Assembly (NCBI GenBank): GCA_016290835.1
Contig: JAEEVG010000005.1
Location: 18,660-82,659 of the forward strand
Direction of reading: 5' to 3'
Length of the DNA stretch: 64,000 nucleotides
DNA from: Bacteroidales bacterium
GTDB lineage: Bacteria; Bacteroidota; Bacteroidia; Bacteroidales; UBA932
Position numbers and translations under genes: made by a program. Of the stretch, positions 26,811 through 43,700 are shown in pieces (the stretch's first letter is position 1; each line of letters opens with the position of its first letter). Under the pieces are notes generated by a model that did no database searches, was not told where the DNA came from, and was given only the letters and a program-made list of their open reading frames with translations.

Positions 26811-26842
26811 GGATAGCGGCTTCAAGCCGCTATCCTTTTTCT
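26811..26842 (+). terminator. Terminator of the SusC operon
   Basis: Stem GGATAGCGGC / GCCGCTATCC (26811-26820 and 26826-26835) around TTCAA, followed by TTTTTCT. The stop codon of the opposite regulator gene (26830-26832) lies inside the stem. Confidence 0.88.
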
Positions 26843-29800
26843 ATGTTCTTCCGGGCCTCCTGGAGACTTTTCTCCAGAAAGTCTTTCGGCGCGATGCCGA
26901 ACTGCTTTTGGAAGCACTTGGCAAAGTAGGAGGGGGAGTTGAATCCGACCAGGTAGCAGACTTCGTTGACGCGGACGAGATCCTCCCGGAACAGTTTCGC
27001 CGCCTTTTTTAGCCGGGCGAAACGGAGATAGTCGTTGGGGCTCATGTCCATGATGCCGCTGATCTTGCGGTAGAAGCTTGCCCGGCTCATATTGAACTCC
27101 TTGGCCATATCTTCCATCGAGAACGAGGAATTGGCATAATGGGCCTCGATGACCTCGTCCAGATGCTTCAGGAAGTCTTCGTCTGCCTTTGAATGGGCCA
27201 GGATATTGGTGTCCGTGAAGGGGGAGCGGGCGAAGCTGCGGCGCAGTTTCTCCCGGTTCTCCAGTTGATTGAAGATGCAGACTTTCAGGTACTTGACCGA
27301 GAATGGCTTCTCCAGATAGCTGTCCGCCCCGGATTCCATTCCTTCGATCTTGGCCTGCAGATTGGTCTTGGCGGTCAACAGGATCACGGGGATGTGGCTG
27401 AAGCGGATGTTGGACTTGATGGCGTTGCAGAGGGCGAAGCCGTCCATTACGGGCATCATCACATCGCTGATGACCAGTTCGATATCCTGCTTGTCCAGGA
27501 TCTCGAGCGCCGCGGCGCCGTCCCCGGCCGTGAACACGTTGTATTCCTGTTTCAATTCGTTCCGCATGAAGGAGAGCAGTTCGGCGTCGTCATCGACCAC
27601 CAGCAGACGTTTCTTGTGGCCGTCGGGCGCGGGCATCTCTTCCGCGGCGGGGACGGGACCGGGCCCGGAAGCGTCCGCCGTCCGGCCCGCCCGGAACGGC
27701 AGGGTCAGCACGAAGACATTCCGCTCTTCGCCGGGAGCCATTACCAGCGATCCGCCGTGCAGCGTGGCCAGCGACCGGGACAGGCCCAGGCCGAGCCCCG
27801 TCCCGGTGGAGTGGCGTTTCTCCTTCTCGCGGAAGCGGACGAAGGGCTTGAAGATGTCTTCTTTCTTTCCGTCCGGGACCACGGCGCCGTCGTTCTCGGT
27901 CGTGATCCGGAAGCGCTCCTCTCCAGGGAGAGTATCCAGGGTGATGGTCAGGTAGGTGGCCGCGTATTTGAGCCCGTTGTTGATCAGGTTGCTGATGATC
28001 TTGGTGAAGGCCTCTTCGCCGACATCCGCATACAGGTCGGGGCCTTGCGTGCGGAGTTCGGTCCGGATGCCGTTCTGCCGGGCCAGGCCGGAGAAACGGG
28101 CCAGGGTGTCCCGGAGGATGGCCGTGATGTTGCAGTTGGTGACACTCAAGGTATATTCCCGGCTCTCTACCTTGTTGAAGTCGAGCAGCTGGTTGGTCAG
28201 ATCGATCAGCCGCTCGGTGTTGCGTTTCATGATACCCAGATCCTCCCGGACATCCTTGCCCAGGTCTTCCCGGTTCATCACGCTCTCCAGCGGGCCGTTG
28301 ATCAGGGTCAGCGGGGTCCGGATCTCGTGGGCGATGTTGGTGAAGAACTCGATCTTGGAATCATACAGGGCCCGCTCCTTCTCCTGCTCGATCATCTCGA
28401 CCCGCCGGTTGTAGCGGGCTTTGTTGCGCTTGTGGATGTCTCGGAGGGTGAACCAGAGCGCGATGGCCAGGGCCAGGACATAGAAGAGGATGGCTCCCGG
28501 GCTGAGGTATGCGGGCGGGCGGATAAGAATGCTCAGCGCCGCGTCGGCATCGTCGTCCGAGGTGCCGGACATCCGGGTGCGGATCCGTGCCCGGAGCGTG
28601 TAACGGCCGGAGGGCAGGTTGGAATAGGAAGCGATCGGGCTGGGGCCGCCGGTCTGCCAGTTGCTGTCATAGCCTTCCAGCATATATTCGATCGGCCGGG
28701 CCTCGGGAGAGATGTAGTTCGGCGCGACGATGCGCACGGAGAAGGTGTTCTGGTTGGATTTGAGCGTGATGCTCTCCGTGAAGTTGATGCTCTTGGACAG
28801 GGGCGAATTCTCTCCCGGGCTGATTTCCTGCCCGAGCAGGGTGAAGTCGGAGAAGAACAAGGTCGGACCGGCCTTCGGCCCCCGCAGTTCGTCGGGATTG
28901 AAGGCCACCAGGCCCTGGATGCTGCCGAGATAGATTGTGCCGTCCTTGGCGCGGAAGGCGGATTTGTAGTTGAACTGGTCGCTGAGCAGGCCGTTGGCCG
29001 TGGTGTAGAGGGCGATCGGAGTCCCCGTCTGCGGATCGAAGCGGACCAGTCCCTTGCTGGTGGTCATCCAGAGTTTCTCCGACTTGTCCTCCACGATCTG
29101 GTAGAGGATGTCGTCCGGCAGTCCGTCGTCGGTCGAATAGGAAACGAAGGAATCCGTCTCGGGTACATAGCGGCAGCAGCCCCCGCCCTGGGTGGTCAGC
29201 CAGATCCGGTCCTTGGAGTCCAGGAAGAGGCTGATCACGATGTCGTAGGGCAGGCTCTCCGGGTCGTCGTCCCGGTGGCGGTACTGGTGCCATTCACCCT
29301 CGTGGACCCGGTAGCACCACGCTCCGTCGGAGTAGGTGGCGACCCAGAGATTGCCCTGGACGTCTTCCTGAAGGTCATAGACGTGCTTCCCCTGGAGTTC
29401 GGTGATTTCGGTGAAGCTGTCTTTCTCGGGATTGTAGTGCATCAGCCCGAGCTGCGTGCCCAGGAAGATGTCCCGGGCCCTGGTGCAGAAGATTGCGTAG
29501 ATGTTGTTGTCGTTGAGGACGCGCCGACTCCCCGTGTTTTCGTATTTGCGGGAAATCTTGCCCGTGCGGGTGTCGATGATGCGCAGCCCCCGTGAGATGG
29601 TCCCCACCCAGAGATCATCCCCAATCAGGCACAGACCGTGGACATTGTTGAAGTCGAGCCCGGGCTTGAACTGGGAGAACTCCCGGGTCTGGGGATTGAA
29701 TTGGTGGAGCCCGCCGTCCTCCGTGCCGATCCAGATCATCCCGCGCGCGTCCTGGCAGATCTCGCGTATCCGTTTGCCCATCAGGGCGCCCTTACCTCCT

Positions 29801-30852
29801 CCGGGATAGTATTTCTCGAAAGAAGCGAAGAAGGGGGAATAGTAGTTGACCCCGCCGAAATAGGTCCCGATCCAGACGCCGCCTTCGTAGTCCTCGCACA
29901 TCGAATAGACGGAATTGGCGGCCAGCGAGAGGGGGTCGTAGTACGAGCTGCGGAGGTGGTCGGTCTGCCCGGTGCGGAAATTTAGGATGAACAGGCCGGA
30001 TTCCGTGCCGGCGAGCAGTTTCTGGTCGCTGGTGATCAGCAGTTCCCGACAGCGGACCGCCCCGCCTCCGCTGTCCTCGCGGAGCAGGCTTTCCAAGCGG
30101 CCGGAAGTGAGGTTGAGATTCCAGACGCCGCTGCGCAACGAGCCGATGATCAGGCTGTTGTACTGGGCGGGGACGATGCTGGTGATCAGTTCATCCTGCA
30201 GGGGAGCGCGGCCACTGCCGCGTTCGGTGTAGGGGAGTATCGTCTGCAGGCCGTCTTCCGAGTAATAGAGGCCCTTGCCCCAACAGCCGATCCAGATGAC
30301 CTCCCGCTGGTCGAAGGCGATGGCGGACACGTTCGACAAGACGGGATTCTCCCGGGCGGAGAAACGGGCGGGGACAGCCTCCGGGCCGTCGAAACGGTAG
30401 AGGCCCGCCCCTTCCACGCCGACCCAGATCCGCCCCTGCCGGTCCGCCTGGATGAACTGGACGGTTGCGCGTCCCCGCTCGTCCGCCCGGTCGAAGGGAA
30501 TGCTGCGGAAGACGGCCGTCTCGGGGGTGTACAGGACCAGCCCGGCATCGGTCCCGATCCAGATATCGCCATCGGGCCCTTCGCATAGGGCCGTGATGAA
30601 GTTGCTGGGCAGGATGCTCCCGTCCGGGGTGTGTTTGAAGATTTTGAAGCGATAGCCGTCATAGCGGTTCAGACCGTCCTTGGTGCCAAACCACATATAG
30701 CCCTGGCGGTCCTGCAGGATAGCGTTGACCGTGTTCTGCGAGAGACCGCTTTGGACGTTGAGGGTCTTGAAATAGTAACTCTCCTGCGCCCGGAGGGGGG
30801 CGCAGGAGATTACTGCAAGGAGCAGGAGGACAATTATGCGGGATCTGTCCAT
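26830..30852 (-). CDS. Hybrid two-component system sensor/regulator (HTCS)
   Basis: A 1,340-residue one-protein signalling system of the kind that controls Bacteroidota glycan loci. Order: signal peptide (to APLRAQ), periplasmic two-propeller sensor with repeated GLNRYDG / WIGTDAGL / MWFGTKDGL-type strands (about 30-700), Y_Y_Y domain (about 700-765), membrane segment (about 780-805), HisKA with FFTNIAHEIRTPLTL (His near 839), HATPase, receiver with ISDVMMPVMDGF (Asp near 1129) and AraC-type DNA-binding domain ending in SPSYFAKCFQKQFGIAPKDF. The start at 30852 was chosen for its signal peptide. It begins 13 bases after the giant upstream gene. Confidence 0.95.
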   Translation of the reverse strand: MDRSRIIVLLLLAVISCAPLRAQESYYFKTLNVQSGLSQNTVNAILQDRQGYMWFGTKDGLNRYDGYRFKIFKHTPDGSILPSNFITALCEGPDGDIWIGTDAGLVLYTPETAVFRSIPFDRADERGRATVQFIQADRQGRIWVGVEGAGLYRFDGPEAVPARFSARENPVLSNVSAIAFDQREVIWIGCWGKGLYYSEDGLQTILPYTERGSGRAPLQDELITSIVPAQYNSLIIGSLRSGVWNLNLTSGRLESLLREDSGGGAVRCRELLITSDQKLLAGTESGLFILNFRTGQTDHLRSSYYDPLSLAANSVYSMCEDYEGGVWIGTYFGGVNYYSPFFASFEKYYPGGGKGALMGKRIREICQDARGMIWIGTEDGGLHQFNPQTREFSQFKPGLDFNNVHGLCLIGDDLWVGTISRGLRIIDTRTGKISRKYENTGSRRVLNDNNIYAIFCTRARDIFLGTQLGLMHYNPEKDSFTEITELQGKHVYDLQEDVQGNLWVATYSDGAWCYRVHEGEWHQYRHRDDDPESLPYDIVISLFLDSKDRIWLTTQGGGCCRYVPETDSFVSYSTDDGLPDDILYQIVEDKSEKLWMTTSKGLVRFDPQTGTPIALYTTANGLLSDQFNYKSAFRAKDGTIYLGSIQGLVAFNPDELRGPKAGPTLFFSDFTLLGQEISPGENSPLSKSINFTESITLKSNQNTFSVRIVAPNYISPEARPIEYMLEGYDSNWQTGGPSPIASYSNLPSGRYTLRARIRTRMSGTSDDDADAALSILIRPPAYLSPGAILFYVLALAIALWFTLRDIHKRNKARYNRRVEMIEQEKERALYDSKIEFFTNIAHEIRTPLTLINGPLESVMNREDLGKDVREDLGIMKRNTERLIDLTNQLLDFNKVESREYTLSVTNCNITAILRDTLARFSGLARQNGIRTELRTQGPDLYADVGEEAFTKIISNLINNGLKYAATYLTITLDTLPGEERFRITTENDGAVVPDGKKEDIFKPFVRFREKEKRHSTGTGLGLGLSRSLATLHGGSLVMAPGEERNVFVLTLPFRAGRTADASGPGPVPAAEEMPAPDGHKKRLLVVDDDAELLSFMRNELKQEYNVFTAGDGAAALEILDKQDIELVISDVMMPVMDGFALCNAIKSNIRFSHIPVILLTAKTNLQAKIEGMESGADSYLEKPFSVKYLKVCIFNQLENREKLRRSFARSPFTDTNILAHSKADEDFLKHLDEVIEAHYANSSFSMEDMAKEFNMSRASFYRKISGIMDMSPNDYLRFARLKKAAKLFREDLVRVNEVCYLVGFNSPSYFAKCFQKQFGIAPKDFLEKSLQEARKNIEKG

Positions 30853-30865
30853 CCGGTGTTCGGTA

Positions 30866-33800
30866 TCAGCTTTCGAGGCGGTAGACCATCTCCTCGAGTT
30901 TCTTGGGGATGTCGGTGATCTCCATGTTGTAGCGCTCTTTGATGATTTTCTTGACATCCGTGACGCTGAGGCTGAAGGAGTCCTGGGTCTTGACCTCGAT
31001 CTGCTTGATGAGGTAGAACATTTCTTTCTCCGTATCGGTGAGCTTGCCGAGGGTGCCGCGGTAGGTCCCGCGCGGCTCGATGCTGTTGAAATACAACTTG
31101 TAAGCCTGCCGCAGGCCTTCTTCCTGCTTGGCCAGGCCGGCGGCCGTGTCGCCGGCGCGCTCCAGCTGCAGGCCGGCATCGATCCAGGCGGCCGGCTTGT
31201 GCTTGAACGCGTTGGCCACGCCGTCTACGTCGGTGAAGTCCTCGCCGAAGTGCTCTTTCTGGAAGCCGCGCCTGAGGTCGTCCTCGCCGGCGCCGATCAT
31301 CTCGTCCGAGCCTTTCTGGACCACGGCCTGGTCGCCCTCGGCCGCCGTGAGACCCGTCGTCTCCTTGTAGGCCTCGTTGTAGGCATCTTCGGCGATGTCC
31401 TGCGGGATCTCCTCGGGGATGGGGTCGGGGTTGGCCTTGGTGGGCTTCTTCCTGCGCAGGACGGTGACGTCGCGGTCGCGGGTGAGGTCGATGCCGGACT
31501 CCAGGGCGTCCTTGTTGCTATTGGTCGCGCAGTGGATGATCAGATCCTCTTCGTCGATGTTTTCGCCCATGTCGCGCATCTTCTCGGTGATCTTCTTGAT
31601 GGTCTTCTGGTCCACGATCCTGTAGTCGGCCTGGAGGGTCCGGTAGTACTCGGAGCGCAGGTTATAGGAATAGGTCCCGTTGTAGAGCGCCAGCTGCTTC
31701 TGGGCGACCTTGTCGGCCTGGATCTCGTAGGCGAGCTTCTTGAAAGCGGCCTCCGCTTCGGGTGTCCGGTAGCGCCGGTACTCCAGGTAGCTGTGTTCGA
31801 ACTCCTTGACCTTCTTCAGGCCGTTGATGTTGGCCTGGCGGCCGAGCTCGTCTTCCAGGATTTCCTCCGGGGTCCACTTGGAGTTCTGGCGGTATTCCCG
31901 GATGATCTCCTCGGTGCTCTTCTTGAGGTTCTTCTGGAGCTGCTTGGTCTGGTTGAGCTGCTTGATCGTGTTGCGGCCGAAGCGTTCGGAAGCGAAGTTC
32001 TTGAGGTCGCGGCCGATTTCGCGCACGTCTTTTCCGAGGATGCCCAGGCTGTCCTTGACGTCGCCGATGGCCTTGGAGGCGAAGGCGGCGCAGTTGGCCG
32101 CGAACTCCGGATGGTAGTGGGCGATGAACTCGGCGGAATTCTGCAGCGCCGCACCCCAGAGCTGCTCGGTCGCGAACTCGATGGCGACGGTCTTGACGCC
32201 CACGAAGAACGCCTTCCAGGCTCCGCCCGGGTTGACCGGGTCGTTGACCACGTCGAGCATGTCCTTGGGGATCTTGATGGCGGTCAGGGCCGTCTCGGAC
32301 CAGCCGAGGGTCAGGATGCCCAGGCTCATGCGGGTCCAGAATCCGCCGTGGTCCTCGAGCCACTGCTCTGCCTGGACGCTGGTCTTGGCGAGCGCCACCA
32401 TCAGGTCGGCGGCGAAGCCCATCTCCTCGACCGGCTCGGCCTCGGCGTTGGCGCCGGCGATCTTGCCCGAGACGAAGTTCAAGAAGGTGTTGCGGGCCAG
32501 CCAGGCCAGTCCGGGATCGTAGCCGAAGCGGTAGTCGTAGCCGTCCAGCAGCATTTCGCAGAGGCGGTACACGGGTCCGATGTTCTGGAGCAGGTCGTGG
32601 CGGAGGATGTAGTCCTTGATGTGGATCAGGTTGTTCGTGATCGCGTCGTCGGACTCTCCCGTCACCGGGTCCAGGCCGTTTTCGCGCAGCGGCTGGCTGG
32701 TGAACCAGACCTCCTGGTCGGCCTTGTAGAATTCCTTGTCCCAGAAGAACTCCACGTGCAGGTTGACCTTGCGGCGGGCGGGCGGATCCAGCAGGGCGCC
32801 CGGATAGACGATGCAGTTGGTGCTGTTGTCCCCGAGCACTTCCTTGATGAGCATCTGGATTTTGATTTTGTCGATTACCTGCTGATCGCTCATCCCCTTG
32901 GTCTCGCGGCTGGCGTAGTCCGTGAATTCGGCGTCCCGTTCGCCGGCCAGCGGTTCGGCGTAGAACATGGTCTCCCGCGGATCGGGCACCATGCGCGTCA
33001 GTTCGTGCTTCTCCTCGTCCCAGTAGATGAAGGACAGGGTGGCCGTGGTGACGCAGGGGGCGTAGGCCTTGCCGTTGTTCATGATCTTCAGATCGCTGGG
33101 ATGCCGGGTCGGGTCGTAACGCTCGATGTAGCAGCCGACGAACGGGTCGGTCTTGAAGACGAGGCCCATGTTGAAGCGCAGGACGGGCAGTTCCCCGGTC
33201 ACCTCGTGCTGGTTCGTGTCGGTGGCCTTCACGTGGAGGGTGTGGATGGTATATTCGCCCGCCTTGCCGACCTTCTTGTCTTTCTCGTTGATGACGGCAT
33301 ACCAGAAGCCCGGCTTCTCCGCCCTTTCCAAGGAGACGGTATAGGCCTTGTCGATGGTGGCCTCGACCTCGGCTTCTTCGCTCACGCCGATTATCTGGAA
33401 GGGGAGGCGTTCCTCGTCTTTGTGGTTGGACGGGAGGGTGAGGTTCGGCTGGAAGAAGATGACACGTCCGTCCTCGATCTCGAAGACCACTTTCTGGATC
33501 AGGGCGCCGTGGCTCGTGCGGAAGGTGAAGGCGATGGTGCCCTGCCAGACATCGTTCTGGGGCGGGTCGGGGACCTGGATGCTCGCCGTGCGGTAGCGGG
33601 GCGACATCCCGAGGGCGAGGATCTTGATGTTATCGACTTCGGTGATTTCGATCTTGGCGGTCAGGTCCTTGCGCTCGATGCGTTTCCCCTCGGCGGTGAT
33701 CTCCTCGATGCGCGCCCCGATGATCTTGGGCGGGTCTCCGACAATCAGTTTGTTGCCGAACTCCTTGTAGATGTACATTTTGTAGGTGCTCGGCTTCTTG

Positions 33801-34939
33801 GCTTCTTTCTTCTTCTCGCTCTTGTCCTGGCCTTTGTCTTCCTTGTTCTTCTTGACCTTGTCCGTTACGGTTTGGATAACCTTGCCGATGAGGCCCAGCA
33901 GGCCCAGGGAGACGGCCGCGGGAATCACCCACGGCGGGAGCTGCAGCCCTTTATCCTCACCGGGGGGCTCTTCCGCAGGCCTGATGACCTCGAAATCGCC
34001 GCCGTCGGGGAAGCACTGGTAGAGATAGAGCGCGGTGATGGTGTGCGTGCTCCGCTGGACCTGGTTGCTCCGGTGGTATTCGAGGGTGAACTGGACGACC
34101 ATGAAAGCATCGTCCTCGAGCTGCAGGCACTGGTTCCAGGAATCGTCGTCGAAGGCGAGCTTCGCAGACGCGACATCCCGGACGGACTCATCCCATTCCT
34201 GGTCTCCGTCATACTCTTCGAACGCCTCCTCAATCTCGTCCTCGAAATCCCCGAAGGCATCGTTGAAATCCTCGCTGAACTCCTCCGCGCCCGAACTGTT
34301 GGCCAGGATGCGGCTGACGGTGTTGTAGTTCAGGGCGTAGCGGTCGGTCTTGATCCCGGGCATGACCGCGACGCCGAGGGAATACTCGAACGACTCGGTC
34401 AGGCCCATCATCGCGTCTTCGCGGACGGCCTTGATATCGAAGGGCTTGTCGTCGTAGCGCGCATTGAAACTCACGAAGATTTCGTTCTCCTTGCCCACTT
34501 CGACATACTGCTGGGGCGGCGTCCAGGTAAGGGACAGGCGGTGCATGTTGTCGTGGGCCCGCTCGACGTGCCCGCCGATGTCCACGCGTATGGTCCCGTC
34601 GCCGGATTTCTCGATCTGCTCCTGGTTCCAGTCATAGATCTCCTTGGTGTATTCCTTGGAGTTCTGCGTACTGAAACTCCTGCCGTCGGCGGTGACGCTG
34701 CCGGTGCCGCTGCTGCCCCGGCTGATCATCTGCGGGATGCTGTGGACGATGTTGAATTCCAAGCGTCCGTCCGAAACGGACGATACACCCGTGTCACTGC
34801 CGTTCGAACGGTCTCCGTCGATCAGGATTTTTCTCTCTTTCAGGGCCCAATGGCCGCGGTTCTGCGCCGGACACGCGGGCCCGGACAACAGAAATGCGCA
34901 AAAGGCGAGACCGACGAGTGCGCAGAGGGATTGTCTCAT
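30866..34939 (-). CDS. Giant unrecognised exported/membrane protein of the zinc-ribbon operon
   Basis: 1,357 residues, no family recognised. Signal peptide 1-25 (ends GPACPAQ), then a beta-rich region with a very acidic stretch near residues 230-255. A membrane segment follows at about 332-350 (LPPWVIPAAVSLGLLGLIG), then a Lys/Glu-rich linker (360-385). Ig-like strands seem to cover about 390-700, and the rest is mainly helical, with Gln/Lys-rich coiled-coil-like stretches near 980-1060. The C-terminal 250 residues (IIHCATNSNKDALESG, DLTRDRDVTVLRRKK) recall modules of polymorphic-toxin-like or large gut Firmicutes proteins, but only from memory. The start overlaps the upstream zinc-ribbon gene by four bases (ATGA). 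Confidence 0.8.
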   Translation of the reverse strand: MRQSLCALVGLAFCAFLLSGPACPAQNRGHWALKERKILIDGDRSNGSDTGVSSVSDGRLEFNIVHSIPQMISRGSSGTGSVTADGRSFSTQNSKEYTKEIYDWNQEQIEKSGDGTIRVDIGGHVERAHDNMHRLSLTWTPPQQYVEVGKENEIFVSFNARYDDKPFDIKAVREDAMMGLTESFEYSLGVAVMPGIKTDRYALNYNTVSRILANSSGAEEFSEDFNDAFGDFEDEIEEAFEEYDGDQEWDESVRDVASAKLAFDDDSWNQCLQLEDDAFMVVQFTLEYHRSNQVQRSTHTITALYLYQCFPDGGDFEVIRPAEEPPGEDKGLQLPPWVIPAAVSLGLLGLIGKVIQTVTDKVKKNKEDKGQDKSEKKKEAKKPSTYKMYIYKEFGNKLIVGDPPKIIGARIEEITAEGKRIERKDLTAKIEITEVDNIKILALGMSPRYRTASIQVPDPPQNDVWQGTIAFTFRTSHGALIQKVVFEIEDGRVIFFQPNLTLPSNHKDEERLPFQIIGVSEEAEVEATIDKAYTVSLERAEKPGFWYAVINEKDKKVGKAGEYTIHTLHVKATDTNQHEVTGELPVLRFNMGLVFKTDPFVGCYIERYDPTRHPSDLKIMNNGKAYAPCVTTATLSFIYWDEEKHELTRMVPDPRETMFYAEPLAGERDAEFTDYASRETKGMSDQQVIDKIKIQMLIKEVLGDNSTNCIVYPGALLDPPARRKVNLHVEFFWDKEFYKADQEVWFTSQPLRENGLDPVTGESDDAITNNLIHIKDYILRHDLLQNIGPVYRLCEMLLDGYDYRFGYDPGLAWLARNTFLNFVSGKIAGANAEAEPVEEMGFAADLMVALAKTSVQAEQWLEDHGGFWTRMSLGILTLGWSETALTAIKIPKDMLDVVNDPVNPGGAWKAFFVGVKTVAIEFATEQLWGAALQNSAEFIAHYHPEFAANCAAFASKAIGDVKDSLGILGKDVREIGRDLKNFASERFGRNTIKQLNQTKQLQKNLKKSTEEIIREYRQNSKWTPEEILEDELGRQANINGLKKVKEFEHSYLEYRRYRTPEAEAAFKKLAYEIQADKVAQKQLALYNGTYSYNLRSEYYRTLQADYRIVDQKTIKKITEKMRDMGENIDEEDLIIHCATNSNKDALESGIDLTRDRDVTVLRRKKPTKANPDPIPEEIPQDIAEDAYNEAYKETTGLTAAEGDQAVVQKGSDEMIGAGEDDLRRGFQKEHFGEDFTDVDGVANAFKHKPAAWIDAGLQLERAGDTAAGLAKQEEGLRQAYKLYFNSIEPRGTYRGTLGKLTDTEKEMFYLIKQIEVKTQDSFSLSVTDVKKIIKERYNMEITDIPKKLEEMVYRLES

Positions 34940-35256
34940 AATATGTAGTAAAGGTAGTTATCGTAAATATAGTACCCGGCGAAGGCGAGAATGGCTATCA
35001 GGATGAGCCAGAGCAGGAAGCGGACGATGAAGGGCTTTTTCTTCTTTTCTTTTTTACCTGCCGGGGCCGGCTGCGCATAGGGTTGCTGTTGTGCCTCGGA
35101 TCCGGGCTCATCCCACTGGATCGCGGCGAATTCGCCTGCTTCGGCCGGGGCCTCTACGAAGGATTTGGGCTGCGGTGCGGCAACCGGGGTGCCGCAGGAA
35201 GTACAAAACTTGGCGCCGTCGGGAATCTGGGCGCCGCAGTGGGTACAGAATGCCAT
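34936..35256 (-). CDS. Tail-anchored zinc-ribbon protein, small
   Basis: 106 residues. The N-terminal zinc ribbon has two CxxC knuckles: AFCTHCGAQIPDGAKFCTSCG. A Gln/Pro/Ala-rich linker and a Lys-rich patch (KKEKKKKP) follow, then one C-terminal membrane helix (FLLWLILIAILAFAGYYIY). The layout places the ribbon in the cytosol with a tail anchor. The start is ATG 35256 because that residue begins the ribbon; the open frame further upstream is the shadow of the next gene. Its stop overlaps the start of the 1,357-residue gene. Confidence 0.88.
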   Translation of the reverse strand: MAFCTHCGAQIPDGAKFCTSCGTPVAAPQPKSFVEAPAEAGEFAAIQWDEPGSEAQQQPYAQPAPAGKKEKKKKPFIVRFLLWLILIAILAFAGYYIYDNYLYYIL

Positions 35257-35279
35257 ATTTCGTTTGTCTGGTTCCGCGC

Positions 35280-35555
35280 CTAACCGCCGATAGGGAACAG
35301 GGTCATGAGGATGCCGGTGCCGACGGCGATCAGCACCCAGTGCCACCATTTGACTTTCTGGTTTTTCCGGGCGGCCCGGACCTTGTCCATATAGGACATC
35401 TTCTGGGGCGCGGGCTGTTGGTATTGCGGCTGCTGGTACTGGGGGTACTGGGGCTGCTGGTACTGGGGTGCGGCGGCGCCCAGCCGGTTGCCGCAGGTCG
35501 AGCAGAAAGTGGCGTTGTCGGGGAGCTGGGCCCCGCAGTAGGGACAATACTTCAT
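35280..35555 (-). CDS. Zinc-ribbon protein with Q/P/Y repeats and one membrane helix
   Basis: 91 residues. N-terminal ribbon KYCPYCGAQLPDNATFCSTCG, a repetitive QYQQPQYPQYQQPQYQQP linker, a basic stretch (DKVRAARKNQKVK), and a C-terminal membrane helix WWHWVLIAVGTGILMTLF. It lies 23 bases upstream of the third ribbon gene and three bases after the first. Two other proteins of the same ribbon-linker-membrane layout in one operon suggest paralogues that may assemble together. Function unknown. Confidence 0.88.
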   Translation of the reverse strand: MKYCPYCGAQLPDNATFCSTCGNRLGAAAPQYQQPQYPQYQQPQYQQPAPQKMSYMDKVRAARKNQKVKWWHWVLIAVGTGILMTLFPIGG

Positions 35556-35558
35556 ATT

Positions 35559-36341
35559 TTAGCTGGCTTTGGGACAATGGGCACGGATGAAATCGAGCAC
35601 GAACTGGAAGTTCGCGTCATCCACATAGACCTGGTTCTTGCTGAGCGGGGCATTGACCTTGATGAGGTTATGGGCAGGAGAGGCCTTAATGCTGCGCACC
35701 TTGGAGAAATCGGAGTAGAGGCTGTTGCGGCTGGCGGCCAGGATGCCGGCGCCCGTGGCGACCGGGTTGCCGGCGATGGCGCCTGCGACCATGGCGATCC
35801 AGCCGGCCACCTGGGCCTTTTTGAATTGCTTCGGGAGCTGGATATGGCGCAGGCCGGTCTCGTTCATCTCGAAGAGGACGCAGTATTTTCCGCCGTTCAT
35901 GGCGGCGACGATCAGGTAGCTCAACCCGACCAGCACGACCATGCCGATGATGATGAAGAACATGACCTTGGTGGTCTCCAGGAAATTGGAGAAACCGTCG
36001 GCGATGTTCATCAGCAGCCAGATGGCGAGGGCGATTCCGCCGAAGATCTTGAAGAGCGTGCCGAGAATGGCCGTGTTCTTGAGCATGTTGAGCTCATAGA
36101 CCCAGCGGTACAGCCCGTCCGGGCAGAGGGTCACATTGCTGTCGAAGGACTCTGGGTCCGGGTTGTAAGCCGGCTGGGGCGGAGGGGCCTGGGTGTAGGG
36201 TTGCGGCTGGGAGTATTGCGGCTGCGGCTGCGTGTATTGCGGCTGCGCCGGGGTCTCCGCAGGACCCGTGGGCGTACCGCAGGAGCCGCAGAACTGGGCA
36301 TCGTCGGGGAGCTGCGCCCCGCAATTTGGACAGTATTTCAT
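35559..36341 (-). CDS. Zinc-ribbon membrane protein with C-terminal PH-like region
   Basis: 260 residues from ATG 36341. Ribbon KYCPNCGAQLPDDAQFCGSCG is followed by a Gln/Pro/Tyr-rich linker (about 28-62) and two membrane segments near 95-120 (LGTLFKIFGGIALAIWLLM) and 130-150 (FFIIIGMVVLVGLSYLIVA). The C-terminal part (YSDFSKVRSIKASPAHNLIKV, QVYVDDANFQFVLDFIRAHC) looks like the beta-rich PH-type domain of zinc-ribbon proteins known from gut Clostridia. It is the first gene of the operon. A TTG two codons upstream is a less likely start. Confidence 0.85.
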   Translation of the reverse strand: MKYCPNCGAQLPDDAQFCGSCGTPTGPAETPAQPQYTQPQPQYSQPQPYTQAPPPQPAYNPDPESFDSNVTLCPDGLYRWVYELNMLKNTAILGTLFKIFGGIALAIWLLMNIADGFSNFLETTKVMFFIIIGMVVLVGLSYLIVAAMNGGKYCVLFEMNETGLRHIQLPKQFKKAQVAGWIAMVAGAIAGNPVATGAGILAASRNSLYSDFSKVRSIKASPAHNLIKVNAPLSKNQVYVDDANFQFVLDFIRAHCPKAS

Positions 36342-36945: not shown

Positions 36946-36976
36946 TTTGAAATTATTGCCAAGTTGCTTATCTTTG
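36946..36976 (+). promoter_or_regulatory. Promoter of the MNT/HEPN pair
   Basis: TTTG at 36946-36949 and TATCTTTG at 36969-36976 with a 19-base gap match the Bacteroidota consensus. The ATG at 36985 is only nine bases past the -7 box, so the transcript would be nearly leaderless or translation may start at the ATG at 37015. Confidence 0.78.
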
Positions 36977-36984
36977 CGGGCGGG

Positions 36985-37755
36985 ATGAAGTACAAAAGTT
37001 TCATATCACCCAAAATGCAGGCAGTCGCGGAGGTGTTGACAGACACCTTCGTGGGGATGGATCATTGTGTTTCGGATAAATCTCCGAACCTGATTGTCGA
37101 GGTCCCCAGGAATATGTGTGAAACGGTTCGTTCTGCCTTGAAACTCCGGTTTCGGGATGTCGCATTGATGCGGAACGCCTGGCCGATGATCGGGGATCTG
37201 CACGATTTTATCTTGATCAAGCCTCTCATCTCCGAATCACCTGTGTATGAAGAGGATGGGGTCATAGTACCTGAATTGGAGAAGCTCCTGGTGGACCAGG
37301 ATGCGGATAGGGAATATGCCGAGATGGCCGACGACGAGATTCAGAGAGTCTTTCAGCGCGCTTTCGAGTTGTACCCCGTCAATACATCCCGCCTATTCAG
37401 ATATGCCGGAAGAAAAGGGAAGAAAGAGGAAATCAGCAGGCGGGTGGAGCGCCTTGACCGGAGCCGCGTCGCCATTGTGCATGCCATACAGGATTTCTTC
37501 TGTCAGGAGCCGGTTGAACGGGCCTGGCTGTTCGGCTCCTTTTCGCGGATGGAGGAGAAGCCGGAGAGCGATATCGACATTCTGATAGACCTGGACGGCT
37601 CCGTTCCGATGGGGCTCCTGCAGTACGCCGGCATGGTCAACAAGCTCGAGCGCCTGCTGGGCCGGAAGGTCGATTTGGTGGCCACCGGCAGCGTGAAGCC
37701 CTTTGCGCAGGATAGCATCAATCGCGACAAAGTCCTGGTCTATGAGAGAACCTGA
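36985..37755 (+). CDS. MntA-type nucleotidyltransferase antitoxin with AbiEi/DUF6577-like N-terminal half
   Basis: 256 residues in two parts. The C-terminal MNT nucleotidyltransferase (about 160-256) has the signature AWLFGSFSRMEEKPESDIDILID with the G-S and the D-x-D metal pair. Such MntA proteins AMPylate and silence HEPN toxins. The N-terminal part (about 1-155) contains IKPLISESPVYEEDGV, PELEKLLVDQDADRE and NTSRLFRYAGRKGKKEEI, which resemble the C-terminal part of AbiEi-like (DUF6577) antitoxins. The winged helix usually expected before that region is missing. HepT follows with a 14-base overlap. The TTG at 36964 is an alternative start but lies upstream of the promoter box. Confidence 0.85.
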   Translation: MKYKSFISPKMQAVAEVLTDTFVGMDHCVSDKSPNLIVEVPRNMCETVRSALKLRFRDVALMRNAWPMIGDLHDFILIKPLISESPVYEEDGVIVPELEKLLVDQDADREYAEMADDEIQRVFQRAFELYPVNTSRLFRYAGRKGKKEEISRRVERLDRSRVAIVHAIQDFFCQEPVERAWLFGSFSRMEEKPESDIDILIDLDGSVPMGLLQYAGMVNKLERLLGRKVDLVATGSVKPFAQDSINRDKVLVYERT

Positions 37756-38104
37756 ACGCGACCTCGGCCGCTTGAAAGATATCATTCAAGCCGCCAATCA
37801 CATAATTAGTTTTACAGAAGGTCTCTCGCAAGTGGAACTTGCTGCAGACAAACTCCGGTATTTTGCCGTGGTCAAGAATGTGGAGATAATAGGGGAGGCC
37901 TCGTATATGCTATCGTTGGAGTTCAAAGAAAAGCATAGTTGTATCCCGTGGAATGATATCATCCGAATGCGCCATATACTGGTTCACGGATATGCGACTA
38001 TCCTTCCGGAACTACTTTGGCATACAGCGTTGGTGGATGTGCCAGTGCTTAAACAACAGATAGAGACTATTATCTCGTCTTCCTCCGAACAGTCCGCCGG
38101 ATAG
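37742..38104 (+). CDS. HepT-type HEPN ribonuclease toxin (DUF86)
   Basis: A 120-residue all-helical protein. The HEPN catalytic motif RX4HXY is present as RHILVHGY near residue 78 (in DIIRMRHILVHGYATI), preceded by the conserved KNVEIIGEASYMLS helix. HepT toxins cleave RNA, and their Tyr is AMPylated by the partner MntA. The start is ATG 37742, inside the end of the nucleotidyltransferase gene, so the pair is translationally coupled with the antitoxin made first. The catalytic Arg, His and Tyr all look intact. A REP-like palindrome follows 36 bases after the stop. Confidence 0.92.
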   Translation: MREPERDLGRLKDIIQAANHIISFTEGLSQVELAADKLRYFAVVKNVEIIGEASYMLSLEFKEKHSCIPWNDIIRMRHILVHGYATILPELLWHTALVDVPVLKQQIETIISSSSEQSAG

Positions 38105-38675: not shown

Positions 38676-38706
38676 TTGACCGAAGATTCCGGATTCGATA
38701 TTTTTG
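38676..38706 (+). promoter_or_regulatory. Promoter of the Big2/BspA surface-protein operon
   Basis: TTG at 38676-38678 (in TTGAC) and TATTTTTG at 38699-38706 with a 20-base gap. It is divergent from the promoter at 38616-38646. The start codon is at 38743. Confidence 0.7.
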
Positions 38707-38742
38707 CTCAATTTACAACTAGCTAATAACTGTAAATACTCT

Positions 38743-40707
38743 ATGAGGCATTTGAGCATATTATTGGCGATGGTGGTGTTGTTGGTGGGTTCTTGTCGCA
38801 AGGCGGAGCCCCCGCAACCGGCCTCGTCCCCGCAGCCCCAAATCACCGTCTCGACTCAGAGTCAGTCTTTCGTGACCCTGGGAATGACGATGGCGGCGCA
38901 AGCCGATCCGGGGCAAACCTTGACTAAATACTTTGACTTCAGGACGACAGCGTCCTGGAATGCGACGGTTGAGGATACCAAGTCCTCTTCCTGGCTTTCA
39001 GTCAGTCCGTCTTCCGGCCAGGCCGGGGCGGTCCAAATGGCTGTCTCTGCCCAGAATAATGAGAAAGAAGAATCTCGAAAGGCAGTCGTGACCGTGAATT
39101 GTGGGTCTGTATATGTCAAGTTTACTGTGACACAGGCGGCGAAGGAGAGAATCAACGTCTCGTCTTTGACCTTGAGTCGAACCGAGTTGACGTTGATGGA
39201 GGGTGATAGTGAAACGTTGGTAGCCACTGTTGGTCCGGACAATGCGACAGATAAAACTGTGACATGGTCAACTTCTGATGCAAACATTGCTACGGTGGAT
39301 GGCAACGGTAAGGTGAACGCTGTCAAGGCTGGCACGTCGACCATCACGGCGAAGGCCGGTGACAAGACGGCGACCTGCTTGGTAACTGTTGAGAAACTAG
39401 TGATTCCAGTCTCATCGGTCTCCCTGAATAAGACCAGTTTGACGCTGACTGAGGGCGAGAGCGAAACACTCACAGCGACTGTGGACCCGGACAATGCGAC
39501 AGACAAAAAGGTAAGCTGGATCAGTTCCAATACCAAGATAGCGACGGTGGATAGCGACGGCAAGGTGACCGCTGTCAAGGCAGGGTCTGCGACTATTACG
39601 GCGAAGGCAGGAGACAAGACAGCGACCTGCTCGGTAACTGTTGAGAAACTTGTAATCCCGGTGTCGTCGATCTCCCTGAATAAGACCAGTCTGACGCTGA
39701 CCGAAGGCGAAAGCGAAACACTGACAGCGACTGTTAATCCGGACAATGCGACTGACAAGAAGGTGAGCTGGAGCAGTTCTAATACCAAGATAGCGACGGT
39801 GGATAGCGACGGCAAGGTGACCGCTGTCAAGGCAGGGTCTGCGACCATTACGGCGAAGGCAGGAGACAAGACGGCGACCTGCATGGTCACGGTAGAGAAA
39901 CTTGTGATCCCAGTATCGTCGGTCTCCCTGAACAAGACCAGCCTGACCTTGACCGAGGGCGAGAACGAGACGTTGACGGCCACTGTAGGTCCGGACAACG
40001 CCACGGACAAGACCGTGACTTGGTCTACTTCTGATGCGAGTGTCGCAACGGTGGATCAAAGCGGTAGAGTCACAGCCGTCAAAGCCGGGTCCGCGACCAT
40101 CACGGCGAAGGCCGGAGACAAGACGGCAACCTGCTCGGTAACTGTTGAGAAACTAGTGATTCCGGTCTCGTCGGTCTCCCTGAATAAGACCAGTCTGACG
40201 CTGACCGAGGGCGAGAGCGAAACACTCACAGCGACTGTGGACCCGGACAATGCGACGGACAAAAAGGTAAGCTGGAGCAGTTCCAATACCAAGATAGCGA
40301 CGGTGGATAGCAACGGCAAGGTGACCGCTGTCAAGGCTGGCACGGTGACTATTACGGCGAAGGCAGGAGACAAGACAGCGACCTGCGCGGTCACGGTGGA
40401 GAAACTTGTGATCCCAGTATCGTCGATTTCTCTTAACAAGACTAGTCTGACGCTGATCGAGGGCGAGAGCGAAACACTCACAGCGACCGTGGACCCGGAC
40501 AACGCCACGGACAAGACCGTGACTTGGTCTACTTCTGATGCGAGTGTCGCAACGGTGGATCAAAGCGGTAGAGTCACAGCCGTCAAAGCCGGGTCCGCGT
40601 CCATCACGGCGAAGGCCGGAGATAAAGCAGCAACTTGTGGTATTACGATAATAACTCAAGGTACATCAGGAGGCAATGAAACGATAGGGGAGGAAATATT
40701 GAAATGA
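38743..40707 (+). CDS. BACON/Big2-repeat surface lipoprotein
   Basis: A 654-residue lipoprotein with lipobox VGSC (Cys18). A BACON-like domain (about 30-135: TVSTQSQSF...WLSVSPSSGQAG...VTQAA) is followed by six Ig-like Big2 repeats of 84 residues, each with the pattern VSSxSLNKTSLTLTEGE...ATVDPDNATDK...VTVEK. The repeats are almost identical in DNA, with a 252-base period. Such proteins usually act as surface stalks or adhesins. The start is ATG 38743, downstream of the promoter. The last codons overlap the next gene (ATGA), so the two are coexpressed. The last repeat is followed by only a short tail. Confidence 0.9.
   Translation: MRHLSILLAMVVLLVGSCRKAEPPQPASSPQPQITVSTQSQSFVTLGMTMAAQADPGQTLTKYFDFRTTASWNATVEDTKSSSWLSVSPSSGQAGAVQMAVSAQNNEKEESRKAVVTVNCGSVYVKFTVTQAAKERINVSSLTLSRTELTLMEGDSETLVATVGPDNATDKTVTWSTSDANIATVDGNGKVNAVKAGTSTITAKAGDKTATCLVTVEKLVIPVSSVSLNKTSLTLTEGESETLTATVDPDNATDKKVSWISSNTKIATVDSDGKVTAVKAGSATITAKAGDKTATCSVTVEKLVIPVSSISLNKTSLTLTEGESETLTATVNPDNATDKKVSWSSSNTKIATVDSDGKVTAVKAGSATITAKAGDKTATCMVTVEKLVIPVSSVSLNKTSLTLTEGENETLTATVGPDNATDKTVTWSTSDASVATVDQSGRVTAVKAGSATITAKAGDKTATCSVTVEKLVIPVSSVSLNKTSLTLTEGESETLTATVDPDNATDKKVSWSSSNTKIATVDSNGKVTAVKAGTVTITAKAGDKTATCAVTVEKLVIPVSSISLNKTSLTLIEGESETLTATVDPDNATDKTVTWSTSDASVATVDQSGRVTAVKAGSASITAKAGDKAATCGITIITQGTSGGNETIGEEILK
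39157..40660 (+). repeat. Six tandem 252-base repeats encoding Big2 domains
   Basis: Units begin at 39157, 39409, 39661, 39913, 40165 and 40417. Repeats 2, 3 and 5 share one central variant (KKVSW...SSNTKIATVDS). Repeats 4 and 6 share another (KTVTWSTSDASVATVDQSGR), and repeat 1 is the most divergent. The interleaving of types points to gene conversion or unequal recombination. Confidence 0.92.
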
Positions 40708-43700
40708 AAAGCAACAAGTTTATTTACATTTTATCTTCAGTTCTGTTTGCTATCTCTTGTAGTAAAACGGATGGACCATTGTCTGTTTCAGAAGAGCAGA
40801 GCCAGGAGCAAATGTCTTTTTCTGCCGTGGTTGAAAGCCCGGCGACCAAGACTGTACTAAATGAGTCCGGTTCTATCATCCTGTGGGAACCGGGAGATGC
40901 TATTCGGGTTTTTCAGAGTACTAATTCCGAGAGGTATATTGCTGATATAGATGCGGCTTCGGAGAGTTGTTCGTTTATGGGAAACAGGATTGAAAAAGAG
41001 GGCGATGGTCAATACTTTGCTGCGTATCCGCACATAAATGGAGATGCCTTTGACGGATCTTTTTTTGAGGTTACTGTTCCTGGGGAGCAAAAAGCAACAA
41101 GTGGCTCATTTGATCGAAATGCCTTTGTTATGTTAGCTAAAAGCGAGAATACTTCCTTGCACTTTAGAAATTTATGTGGAGGGATCAAGTTCTCAATAAC
41201 TGAACCAGGTGTAACGAGAGTTGTATTTAAGGGGAATAATAATGAAGTGCTCGCAGGGCGGGTTTCTGCCGCCTTTGATCAGTCGGGCAATCCTAAGGTG
41301 ATGCAGGTGACAGAGGAGAGGACAGAAGTGTCGCTTTGTGCACCTGAGGGAACGACTTTCAAAGAGGGTGAGTGGTATTATATATCGATTCTTCCAACGT
41401 TATTATCCCAAGGTTTCACACTCCAATTCTATATTGATGGAAAGGAATTATCCATAGGAGGGGAATGGGTCTACGAGTCAGAAGTTTCAATTCGTCGTTC
41501 AGTGTGGACTCGTGTAGGAGGAGCAGACGAAACTTCAGATTATGACTATCAAGTTCCGGCAAATGCTATTCTTTACACCACTTCTGATCACAATCTGATT
41601 TATCTGTATGATAGTAGAGATGTTGTCAAACATTGTTACGATGCTGGTCTCGATGTAAACGTGATTATTTTTAAAGATTATGTTACGGAACTGTCCACTT
41701 TATTTAAGGGTAATAAAAATGTTACATGGGTCAGGCTCTCATCGACTTTTAATAGGATTGTCGATAATGCGTTTGATGGTTGCTCCAGTCTGGAGGGTAT
41801 TTCAATTCCGGAGAGTGTCACAAGTATCGGTTCACGAGCATTTTACAATTGCTCTAGATTGAAACACATCATCATACCGAAAGGAGTCACTTCAATTGCA
41901 AATGGTACATTTGTTGGTTGCTCCAGTTTGCATGAATTGGTAATCCCGGAACAAGTCACAGAGATCGGTGCATCTGCATTTCATGGTTGCTCCAGTTTAG
42001 AGAGTATAATAATCCCTCCTGGAGTTACTTCTATCCAAGATGATACTTTCAACGAGTGTTCTAGTTTGACATATCTTAGTATCCCTGAAGGGGTTACAAG
42101 TATTGGAAAACGTGTCATTCAGGACTGTACAAGCCCGTTGTGTATAACGGTGCCGACTTCTATATGTAGTTTCCTTCAGGGGAATCCAAATGTAAAAGAA
42201 GTTACCTTATTAGGGGGTACAAGCATAAATGCGAAGGCTTTTTCTAGATGTACTGGTTTGACCAGTATCATTATCCCAGATAGTGTAACGAGTATCGAGA
42301 CAAGTGCCTTTACATCTTGTCCTAGTTTGAAGGATGTCACACTCTCCTCAAATCTTACTAAAATAGGAGACTATGCTTTTGAAGCTTGCACAAGTCTGGA
42401 AAACATTTCTATCCCGGAAAGTGTAGAAACTATCGGAGTGTGTGGATTTTATCGATGCTCCAGTCTCACAAGCATAACTATTCCCGAGAGTGTATATTCC
42501 TTAGGGGCTGGTTGTTTTTGGGGATGCTCCAGTCTCACAAGCATAACTATTCCCGAGAGTGTTAATACCATAGAGAATTACTGTTTTAAAGAATGCTCTA
42601 GTCTCACAAGCATAACTATTCCCGAGAATACCAAAATTGGCTACGCTTGCTTTGAAAGTTGCAATAATCTTGTAGATGTTACAATCCCGACATCAGCAAT
42701 TGGTTATTTGAAAGGTCAGAAGAAATTGAAGAATGTTACCCTGCTTGGGGGCACAACCATCGAGGCGGAAGCATTTCGTGAATGTACGGAATTGACAAAT
42801 ATCTCAATTTCAGAAAGCATTACAGAAATTGGCGCTCGTGCTTTTTATGGATGTTCCAATTTGTCCGGCATTACTGTTCCCGCGGGTGTTACTTCAATAG
42901 AAGAAGAGACCTTTGCAAATTGCTCCAGTTTGGGGAGTATTATGTTCGCAGAAGGCATAACCAGTATTGGTGCGAAAGCTTTTATCGGTTGTACCAGCCT
43001 CTCTGATATTATTCTTCCTGATGGTATTGAAAATATTGGTAATCAGGCTTTTAGTGGCTGCTCAAGTCTTTCCGATATTACATTGCCGGCCAGCTTGACT
43101 AGTCTGGGAAGTCAGGCTTTTCGTGGTTGCTCCAGCTTGGTTGACATAGCAATTCCGACCGGAGTTACCACAATTCAAGATGACACTTTTGAACAGTGCA
43201 TTAACTTAAGGAATATTGACTTGCCGAAAGGTCTTTTGCATATTGGATCAGGCGCTTTCTACTGTTGTACAAGTCTTTCTAGCATTACAATACCTTCTAG
43301 TGTTTCAAGCATTGGTAGTCTCGCCTTTTTTTGTTGCTCTAGTCTTCTTGATATTACAATTCCGGAGGGAGTCACAACAATTAGCTGGCTTGTTTTCCAT
43401 GGTTGTACCAAATTAAAGAGAATAGCCATTCCCGAGAGTGTTACAATTATTGAGAGTATTGCTTTTGCAGAGTGTTCTTCTTTGGAAAGCATTACGATAC
43501 CAAAAGGTGTTACAGTAATTCCAGATAACACTTTTAATGGATGTTACAGTTTGTCAAGTGTCGTGATTCCGGAAGGGATTACCAGTATTCAAGGGAGTGC
43601 TTTCCGTGACTGCCGCAGTTTGGAGAGTATCACTCTTCCTCCTTTAATTACAACCATTGCAGACAATACTTTTAACGGATGCACCAATTTGAAGAGCATA

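Follow-up and report, generated by a model that had tools for sequence, protein, structure and literature searches.

The zinc-ribbon operon and its products

The subject of this analysis is an operon of four genes in a 64,000-nucleotide (nt) stretch of contig JAEEVG010000005.1, from a Bacteroidales bacterium of the UBA932 lineage (assembly GCA_016290835.1); the whole stretch is called the window here, and positions are counted from its first letter. The operon lies on the minus strand and codes for three small zinc-ribbon proteins, A, B and C, and for a receptor-like membrane protein of 1,357 amino acids (aa) from an undescribed family, the giant. Judged by comparison with related genomes, ribbon genes, often A among them, and the giant gene are a linked unit. 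In the list of open reading frames (ORFs) the order is A (36341-35559, 260 aa), B (35555-35280, 91 aa), C (35256-34936, 106 aa) and giant (34939-30866), with gaps of 3, 23 and -4 nt, the last being an overlap of the C gene with the giant gene; the ORF coordinates thus bear out the position and spacing given in the original prediction, which had been made from the sequence of the window alone. An open frame of 1,370 aa on the plus strand (30836-34948) mirrors the giant and is probably a by-product of the giant's high third-position G+C content. The minus-strand frame was taken as the real one because homologues support it and related giants are under purifying selection there.

The Pfam family Zn_Ribbon_1 (PF13240, gathering cut-off 25 bits) was matched above its cut-off by A (expectation value, E, 3.7e-10; 39.7 bits), B (9.6e-10; 38.4 bits) and C (1.1e-11; 44.5 bits), which confirms the N-terminal ribbons expected in all three. 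The layout that they were thought to share holds for the ribbon and the low-complexity linker, but each of the three proteins belongs to a family of its own, and they are not a set of paralogous tail-anchored proteins. In hydropathy plots B and C each have one C-terminal hydrophobic segment and are tail-anchored, whereas A has two membrane segments (at about residues 92-121 and 126-144) and is not, since a conserved domain follows these segments and ribbon-less A homologues exist. Between its ribbon and membrane segments A has a Gln/Pro-rich linker and a conserved DGxYxWxY stretch. In B the membrane-proximal segment KMxYMDKVRAAR...KWWxW is common to the window protein and its counterparts in genomes G1012 and G1061 (59% and 55% identical to it). 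A PH-like (YcxB/bPH) domain, suggested by the look of the C-terminal part of A, was dismissed, as no PH family was among the 25 of 56 Pfam families listed as matches for nine A members at E up to 10. When the Protein Data Bank (PDB) was searched by sequence with an A profile, the best match (E 0.024) was to a ribbon.

The giant begins with a signal-peptide-like stretch seen in its hydropathy (residues 1-25, 34865-34939), followed by a probably exported outer domain, the fast-evolving part of the family (26-333, 33941-34864), and a membrane segment, also placed by hydropathy (334-355, 33875-33940). A Lys-rich stretch comes next. Such a flank marks the cytosolic side of a membrane segment (the positive-inside rule), and the giant C-terminal of the segment was therefore placed in the cytosol. 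This part comprises a tandem beta-sandwich region resembling immunoglobulin (Ig) and cadherin folds (383-597, 33149-33793), a further, less certain beta-sandwich (631-747, 32699-33049), a helical region that contains a conserved Gly-rich stretch and occurs in a giant from Clostridia as well (748-981, 31997-32698), and a conserved, mostly helical C-terminal domain (982-1357, 30866-31996) with the D-x-D site DRDVT (1155-1159, 31463-31477). An AlphaFold2 model of residues 383-1357 had a mean predicted local distance difference test score (pLDDT) of 59 and was interpretable only in its beta-sandwich part, the two blocks of which scored 65-89 and 29-83. With this part, Foldseek found tandem cadherin/Ig chains at E of about 1e-8, with query-normalised template modelling (TM) scores of only about 0.12, and tandem Ig/cadherin-like folds are thus predicted for the giant. 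No family in Pfam, NCBIfam or PADLOC was matched by the giant up to E 1 and matches in PHROGs were weak (best E 0.025); the same libraries gave nothing convincing for its relatives, and PDB sequences were matched by the giant and C-terminal profiles at E 0.6 and 0.66 at best. The giant has thus remained as unrecognised as it first appeared, with no known family of ordinary role to explain it.

Recurrence and linkage of ribbon genes and giants

With a better-conserved member as query, giant homologues were found in 23 of 398 sampled genomes of the host's family, the host included, and the host genome itself holds three further giants, C9, C80 and C13 (E 1e-57 to 1e-37). Among 393 genomes sampled from the order and 395 from the phylum, only that of the host matched the giant; these searches recovered just two of the host's four giants, so absence elsewhere is weakly tested by them. 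A was found in 17 of 199 sampled family genomes and, among 247 genomes of the phylum sample, in the host only. All 18 giant loci in named records are from Bacteroidales or Bacteroidia, and six of the records come from rumen, omasum or abomasum samples.

The collected set comprises 43 distinct giants, 36 of which are not cut by a contig end. Linkage was counted from all ORFs and profile matches; codon-usage neighbourhood calls favoured the wrong strand at a few loci. Of the 36 uncut giants, 29 either have a ribbon fused to them or are accompanied by a same-strand ribbon gene no more than 500 nt away (A-type genes included), so that ribbon genes and giant do recur together, and an A gene was found within 3 kb of 26. 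In L081, L082 and the cut L024 the ribbon is fused to the giant's own N-terminus; these fusions fit a direct physical partnership, and the place of the ribbon, ahead of the first hydrophobic stretch, fits the topology given above for the giant. Four of the seven giants without a close ribbon (L042, L045, L079 and L084) sit in tandem arrays that include a ribbon gene, and three (L016, L083 and L025, the last frame-split on a 4-kb contig) have none. The giants of G108 (L025/L049) and G1043 (L094) are split over two frames, by decay or assembly error. Directly upstream of the C80 and C13 giants, we noticed genes for seemingly exported proteins of 233-240 aa ('VDLGLSVKWASCNLGA' type; L016 7905-8627 and L017 6531-7232), the L016 copy having no Pfam match.

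In the host genome, three of the four giant loci account for all seven PF13240 matches (E up to 0.01). The 22 other giant-bearing genomes gave 82 such matches, and of the 40 with E up to 1e-8, a cut-off chosen afterwards, 38 were counted by eye in known giant loci.

The window giant has its nearest relative in G1012, where three giants lie in tandem; one of them is 54% identical to it over 1,341 aligned positions. The order A-B-C-giant is kept there, with identities of 64, 59, 45 and 54% (in C the ribbon and linker alone align), and an extra A-giant pair is inserted between B and C and another giant appended; the gene order is thus not peculiar to one strain. In G052 the order is transporter (which we take to be of the MATE type), ribbon, giant and A. 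Its sister G034 has the same flanks, 75-83% identical, without ribbon and giant and with 31 nt between the aligned ends, so the 4.3-kb unit of ribbon and giant (L018 8840-13158) is present or absent as one. A protein of 1,154-1,155 aa tightly adjoins A in three g16 genomes (L018 13772-17239, L112 11215-14679 and L113 3179-6643, all minus strand), in one of which a giant was found; the L018 copy has no Pfam match above cut-off, and the protein is possibly another partner of A. As far as titles and abstract openings go, the literature searched, outside subscription papers and preprints, contains no description of a ribbon-giant module.

Ribbon proteins next to giants also carry a motif, roughly G-E-V/F-x-L-x-x-W, within their otherwise low-complexity linker. 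Of the 33 distinct non-A ribbon ORFs examined at module loci (L086 13083, a spurious short ORF, among the 33), 24 carry it, compared with a mean of 0.16 and a maximum of 2 in 500 shuffles; none of 19 A ribbons does. Two variants missed by the pattern were read by eye, GEFAAIQW in the window's C (35113-35136, minus strand) and GEEVISSW in L020. As controls we used 14 stretches with PF13240 matches, taken from the family's genomes, giant-bearing or other, after the pattern was set; of their 21 ribbons outside known module loci, one carried the motif (L131, at a contig end in the giant-bearing G108).

Domain exchange, distribution and surroundings

The window giant and its G1012 relative are 42% identical in the outer domain, 60% in the Ig-like part, 72% in the helical region and 56% in the C-terminal domain. 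The ratio of nonsynonymous to synonymous substitution rates (dN/dS) was determined for 25 pairs of giants in two groups of close relatives, a set that does not include the window giant. In the outer domain it was 0.15-0.51 in 24 pairs, and the pair G1018-L048 has no amino-acid change there; in the C-terminal domain it was 0.02-0.10 in all 25. By this measure the N-terminal domain is the fastest-evolving part of the giant and its C-terminal half the most constrained.

Silent divergence differed between domains as well. At four-fold degenerate sites G129 and G1123 differ in 4 of 100 positions in the outer domain as against 76 of 140 in the Ig-like part (p 2e-18), G1018 and L048 in 2 of 119 in the helical region as against 61 of 136 in the C-terminus (p 8e-18), and G1163 and G1150 show the opposite trend, with 25 of 60 in the outer domain and 23 of 166 in the Ig-like part. 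Such differences were found in nine of the 15 pairs of one group (p < 0.05/90). The operon, compared in 300-base windows, shows 73-99% identity of G129 with G1123 or G1163, in flanks that are unrelated (36-56%). L048 agrees with G129 in its site, in A and in the C-terminus (mostly 93-99%), whereas the part from its ribbon gene through the helical region matches G1018 (97-100%), the identity switching near the A/ribbon and the helical/C-terminal borders. The sole control, the flanks common to G1163, G1150 and G1123, was mostly 67-92% identical, without such extremes. Recombination together with movement as a unit explains the pattern of tracts, and the giants of this group are recombination mosaics with breakpoints near domain borders, in which the N-terminal domain is, on these comparisons, exchanged between copies.

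At the other end of the protein, seven of the 43 giants stop short of the D-x-D site; the 36 that extend across it all have the D-x-D, 34 of them matching the pattern and the other two reading DHDFT and DRDVS. The C-terminal domain was modelled with AlphaFold2 in the homologue L042, with the window's sequence as second row (pLDDT 72.9, predicted TM-score 0.68). Helices make up most of the model, which also has a small strand-helix-strand-strand unit, and Foldseek found no match to the model below E 0.3 in the PDB and none below E 0.1 among PDB and viral structures.

A tblastn search of plasmid records gave one match, a 2.6-Mb record of Acetoanaerobium noterae (E 1e-8). The locus (L078 5629-12708) carries an A protein, a 366-aa ribbon protein and a 1,576-aa giant on one strand, as well as a membrane protein, and the stretch shown has no annotated feature. 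It resembles the window operon in its A-type ribbon protein (43% identical in an alignment of nine homologues; blastp E 1e-53), in the pairing of a ribbon protein with a giant, and in the homologous C-terminal half of the giant, the only part matched by the family profile (whole-protein E 9.6e-54). It differs in the six predicted N-terminal membrane segments of the giant, in the 366-aa partner, which has its ribbon at the C-terminus and no membrane segment, and in the extra membrane protein of 142 aa. In a tree of A proteins the Acetoanaerobium sequence falls among those of Bacteroidales on a long branch, its placement being unsure, and its identity to the 36 other A proteins in the comparison lies at 36-47%.

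The occurrence in two phyla amounts to this one Clostridial locus. The likeness to Clostridia in the original prediction holds at the level of the system, through this locus, but recent transfer is not indicated. Third-position G+C, which was to reveal transfer, is 0.85-0.89 in A, B and the giant and thus like that of a neighbouring regulator gene (0.84), the short C gene being lower (0.68); these values for A, B and the giant, together with the 36-47% identity of A, speak against recent transfer from Clostridia. An old transfer between phyla is plausible, given that among the Bacteroidota sampled, at limited sensitivity, A and the giant turned up in one family only. Plasmid origin was rejected, the only match in the plasmid collection being the 2.6-Mb Acetoanaerobium record, and so was phage origin, none of 50,697 phage records being matched; viral contigs, scanned four times, gave no convincing relative. 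A weak match of 37 residues to the giant's C-terminal domain on a 179-kb viral contig (L120 7830-8126) was not counted.

The neighbouring regulator, a hybrid two-component protein (26830-30852), begins 13 nt past the giant on its downstream side; it has known domains and was left out of the module. Opposite it are genes that resemble, on reading the sequence, a SusC/SusD cluster. Divergent from the operon, at 36964-38104 on the plus strand, a gene for DUF6577 fused to a polymerase-beta-type nucleotidyltransferase overlaps one of the HepT type; together they are probably a toxin-antitoxin pair of the MNT-HEPN kind. Further on (38704-44354, plus strand) are a protein with BACON and six Big_2 stretches (38704-40707) and then a BspA-type leucine-rich repeat protein of 1,216 aa; G+C drops to about 41% at 41-44 kb, as against 52-64% on either side.

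A possible receptor complex and its alternatives

The interpretation that we tentatively prefer is that the module may be a mobile, recombining membrane receptor or recognition complex. From topology and linkage, a membrane-bound complex is plausible. The N-terminal domain of the giant would lie outside the cytoplasmic membrane, with about 1,000 residues inside, and would bind a variable partner or ligand; the Ig-like chain and the helical region would relay this binding to the D-x-D-bearing C-terminal domain, the output. A, B and C, the last two tail-anchored with their ribbons facing the cytosol, would be adaptors. C would use its G-E-V/F-x-L-x-x-W peptide to dock on either the giant or A, where the peptide might add a beta strand. 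An exchangeable outer domain combined with a fixed intracellular output is a mark of recognition systems, be it for ligand sensing, for telling self from non-self or for recognising phages or partners. A bolder version is possible but somewhat doubtful: a recognition system spread horizontally among anaerobic gut bacteria, its outer domains swapped as specificity cassettes among copies and strains and linked, through dedicated tail-anchored ribbon adaptors that dock by a short peptide, to an intracellular output domain of new fold. The whole module, with receptor, ribbon adaptors and membrane partner A, can be defined from sequence and occurs in two phyla; the candidate docking motif and the invariant D-x-D open it to direct mutational tests, and a structure of the C-terminal domain, the model of which matched no solved structure, could reveal a new fold.

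Several observations weigh against the receptor interpretation or narrow it. Its topology was drawn from hydropathy and the fused forms, the second hydrophobic segment stayed under the threshold in two relatives tested, and cytosolic Ig-like domains would be unusual. The dN/dS values of the outer domain are below 1 and so speak for fast evolution, not for positive selection; the mosaic signal is nearly absent in the second group (one of ten pairs), and the pairs used for dN/dS and four-fold sites are not independent. Assembly chimerism could account for the L048 contig, although it would hardly explain the tracts of 96-99% identity in other pairs. As to linkage, the host's own C80 giant (L016) has neither ribbon nor A within 3 kb, the count by eye in the other giant-bearing genomes covers the 40 stronger PF13240 matches, beside 42 weaker ones, and PF13240 matches also occur in 18 of the 26 genomes examined in which no giant is known, so the ribbon is not exclusive to the module. 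The motif pattern was composed after the module sequences had been viewed, and one motif-bearing ribbon, L115, adjoins A on a 5.4-kb contig that has no giant. A without a giant was found in stretches from seven genomes, among them G067, G103, G051, G096, G963 and G969 (two of these contigs being short), which indicates a role of its own for A; it may be a more general partner. 

A conflict system, that is, anti-phage defence or contact-dependent competition in which the giant would detect or bind an attacker on the outer side, with its conserved C-terminal domain as the effector within the cell, is, in our view, rather unlikely. The patchy presence in the family, gain and loss as a unit (L018 compared with G034), several diverged giants in one genome, the mosaic outer domain in one group and the invariant D-x-D all agree with it. 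It is opposed by the defence-system models in PADLOC, which the window's four proteins did not match up to E 1 and nine giants matched at E 0.012 at best (GajB, two giants; capH and ZorA once each at about 0.02), as well as by the phage records and viral contigs described above. In polymorphic toxins a conserved N-terminal part is followed by a C-terminal toxin domain that varies; in the giant this gradient is reversed, the C-terminus being the most constrained and the N-terminus variable, and no immunity-like partner was recognised.

We also consider it unlikely that the giant is a structural scaffold of the envelope or for adhesion, with the Ig-like chain and long helices forming a filament or brace and the ribbon proteins serving as assembly factors. 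The tandem cadherin/Ig-like folds found by Foldseek, the long helical stretches of the models and the repeat-type surface proteins near the operon (Big_2, leucine-rich repeats) point this way. A constrained C-terminus with an invariant acidic pair, however, fits an output domain better than a passive brace, as does the fact that the Clostridial giant is matched in that half only, and the beta-sandwich region is seemingly cytosolic.

It seems improbable that the C-terminal domain is a far-diverged enzyme of the nucleotidyltransferase kind, and the giant a membrane-bound messenger synthase or modifying enzyme. The idea comes from the order and spacing of motifs (h-x-A-T/S-x-N/S ... D-x-D ... D/E), which presumably resemble those of nucleotidyltransferases, and from the predicted strand-helix-strand-strand-helix around the invariant D-x-D. 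Polymerase-beta-like nucleotidyltransferases are marked by a G-S motif together with D-x-D and a third acidic residue; the giants keep D-x-D but not G-S. No polymerase-beta-type family was among the matches listed (25 of 31 Pfam families, 20 giant members), a HIGH-type nucleotidyltransferase family was matched weakly (E 0.12) in three of the 20, and the PDB offered no sequence below E 0.6 and no structure below the Foldseek value given above. Chance proximity of common zinc-ribbon genes to a large gene, for which the ribbon genes of the 18 genomes with no known giant, and their ordinary surroundings, could be cited, is hardly credible, being already contradicted by the seven of seven matches in the host, the 29 linked giants, the fusions, the absence of the motif from 20 of 21 other ribbons, the joint gain and loss of ribbon and giant, and the same pairing in another phylum.

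The proposed receptor complex shares single traits with known proteins. Ordinary ribbon membrane proteins of sister genomes (L121-L130), which the A profile reaches at E 1e-6 or weaker as ribbon matches, have the PF13240 ribbon and membrane segments and often occur in tandem pairs; they differ by having no giant in the stretches examined and no G-E-V/F-x-L-x-x-W motif. Read by eye, those of L121-L130 are presumably TM2-like or similar, and the paired genes of L121-L128, possibly TM2-like and DUF4190-like, have similar neighbourhoods in several sister genomes. TcaA (NF053815), the topology of which we take to be a ribbon followed by a membrane helix, resembles the ribbon proteins in this N-terminal arrangement. 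The match covers only the ribbon and the start of the linker (B, E 0.0012), and the full-length NCBIfam model was not reached by B (17.7 bits at best; cut-off 550); the extracellular domains of TcaA are absent and the partners are others. With Ig/cadherin-like repeat proteins the giant shares predicted tandem beta-sandwich folds; it differs in lacking a Pfam Ig match and in the large conserved helical domain that follows, seemingly in the cytosol. In its workings alone the giant would be like the hybrid two-component regulators, with an exported sensor domain, a membrane helix and a conserved cytosolic output, but Pfam finds no kinase, receiver or DNA-binding domain in it. The general idea of a receptor is not new; beyond the ribbon, no described family in the libraries was matched by A or the giant.

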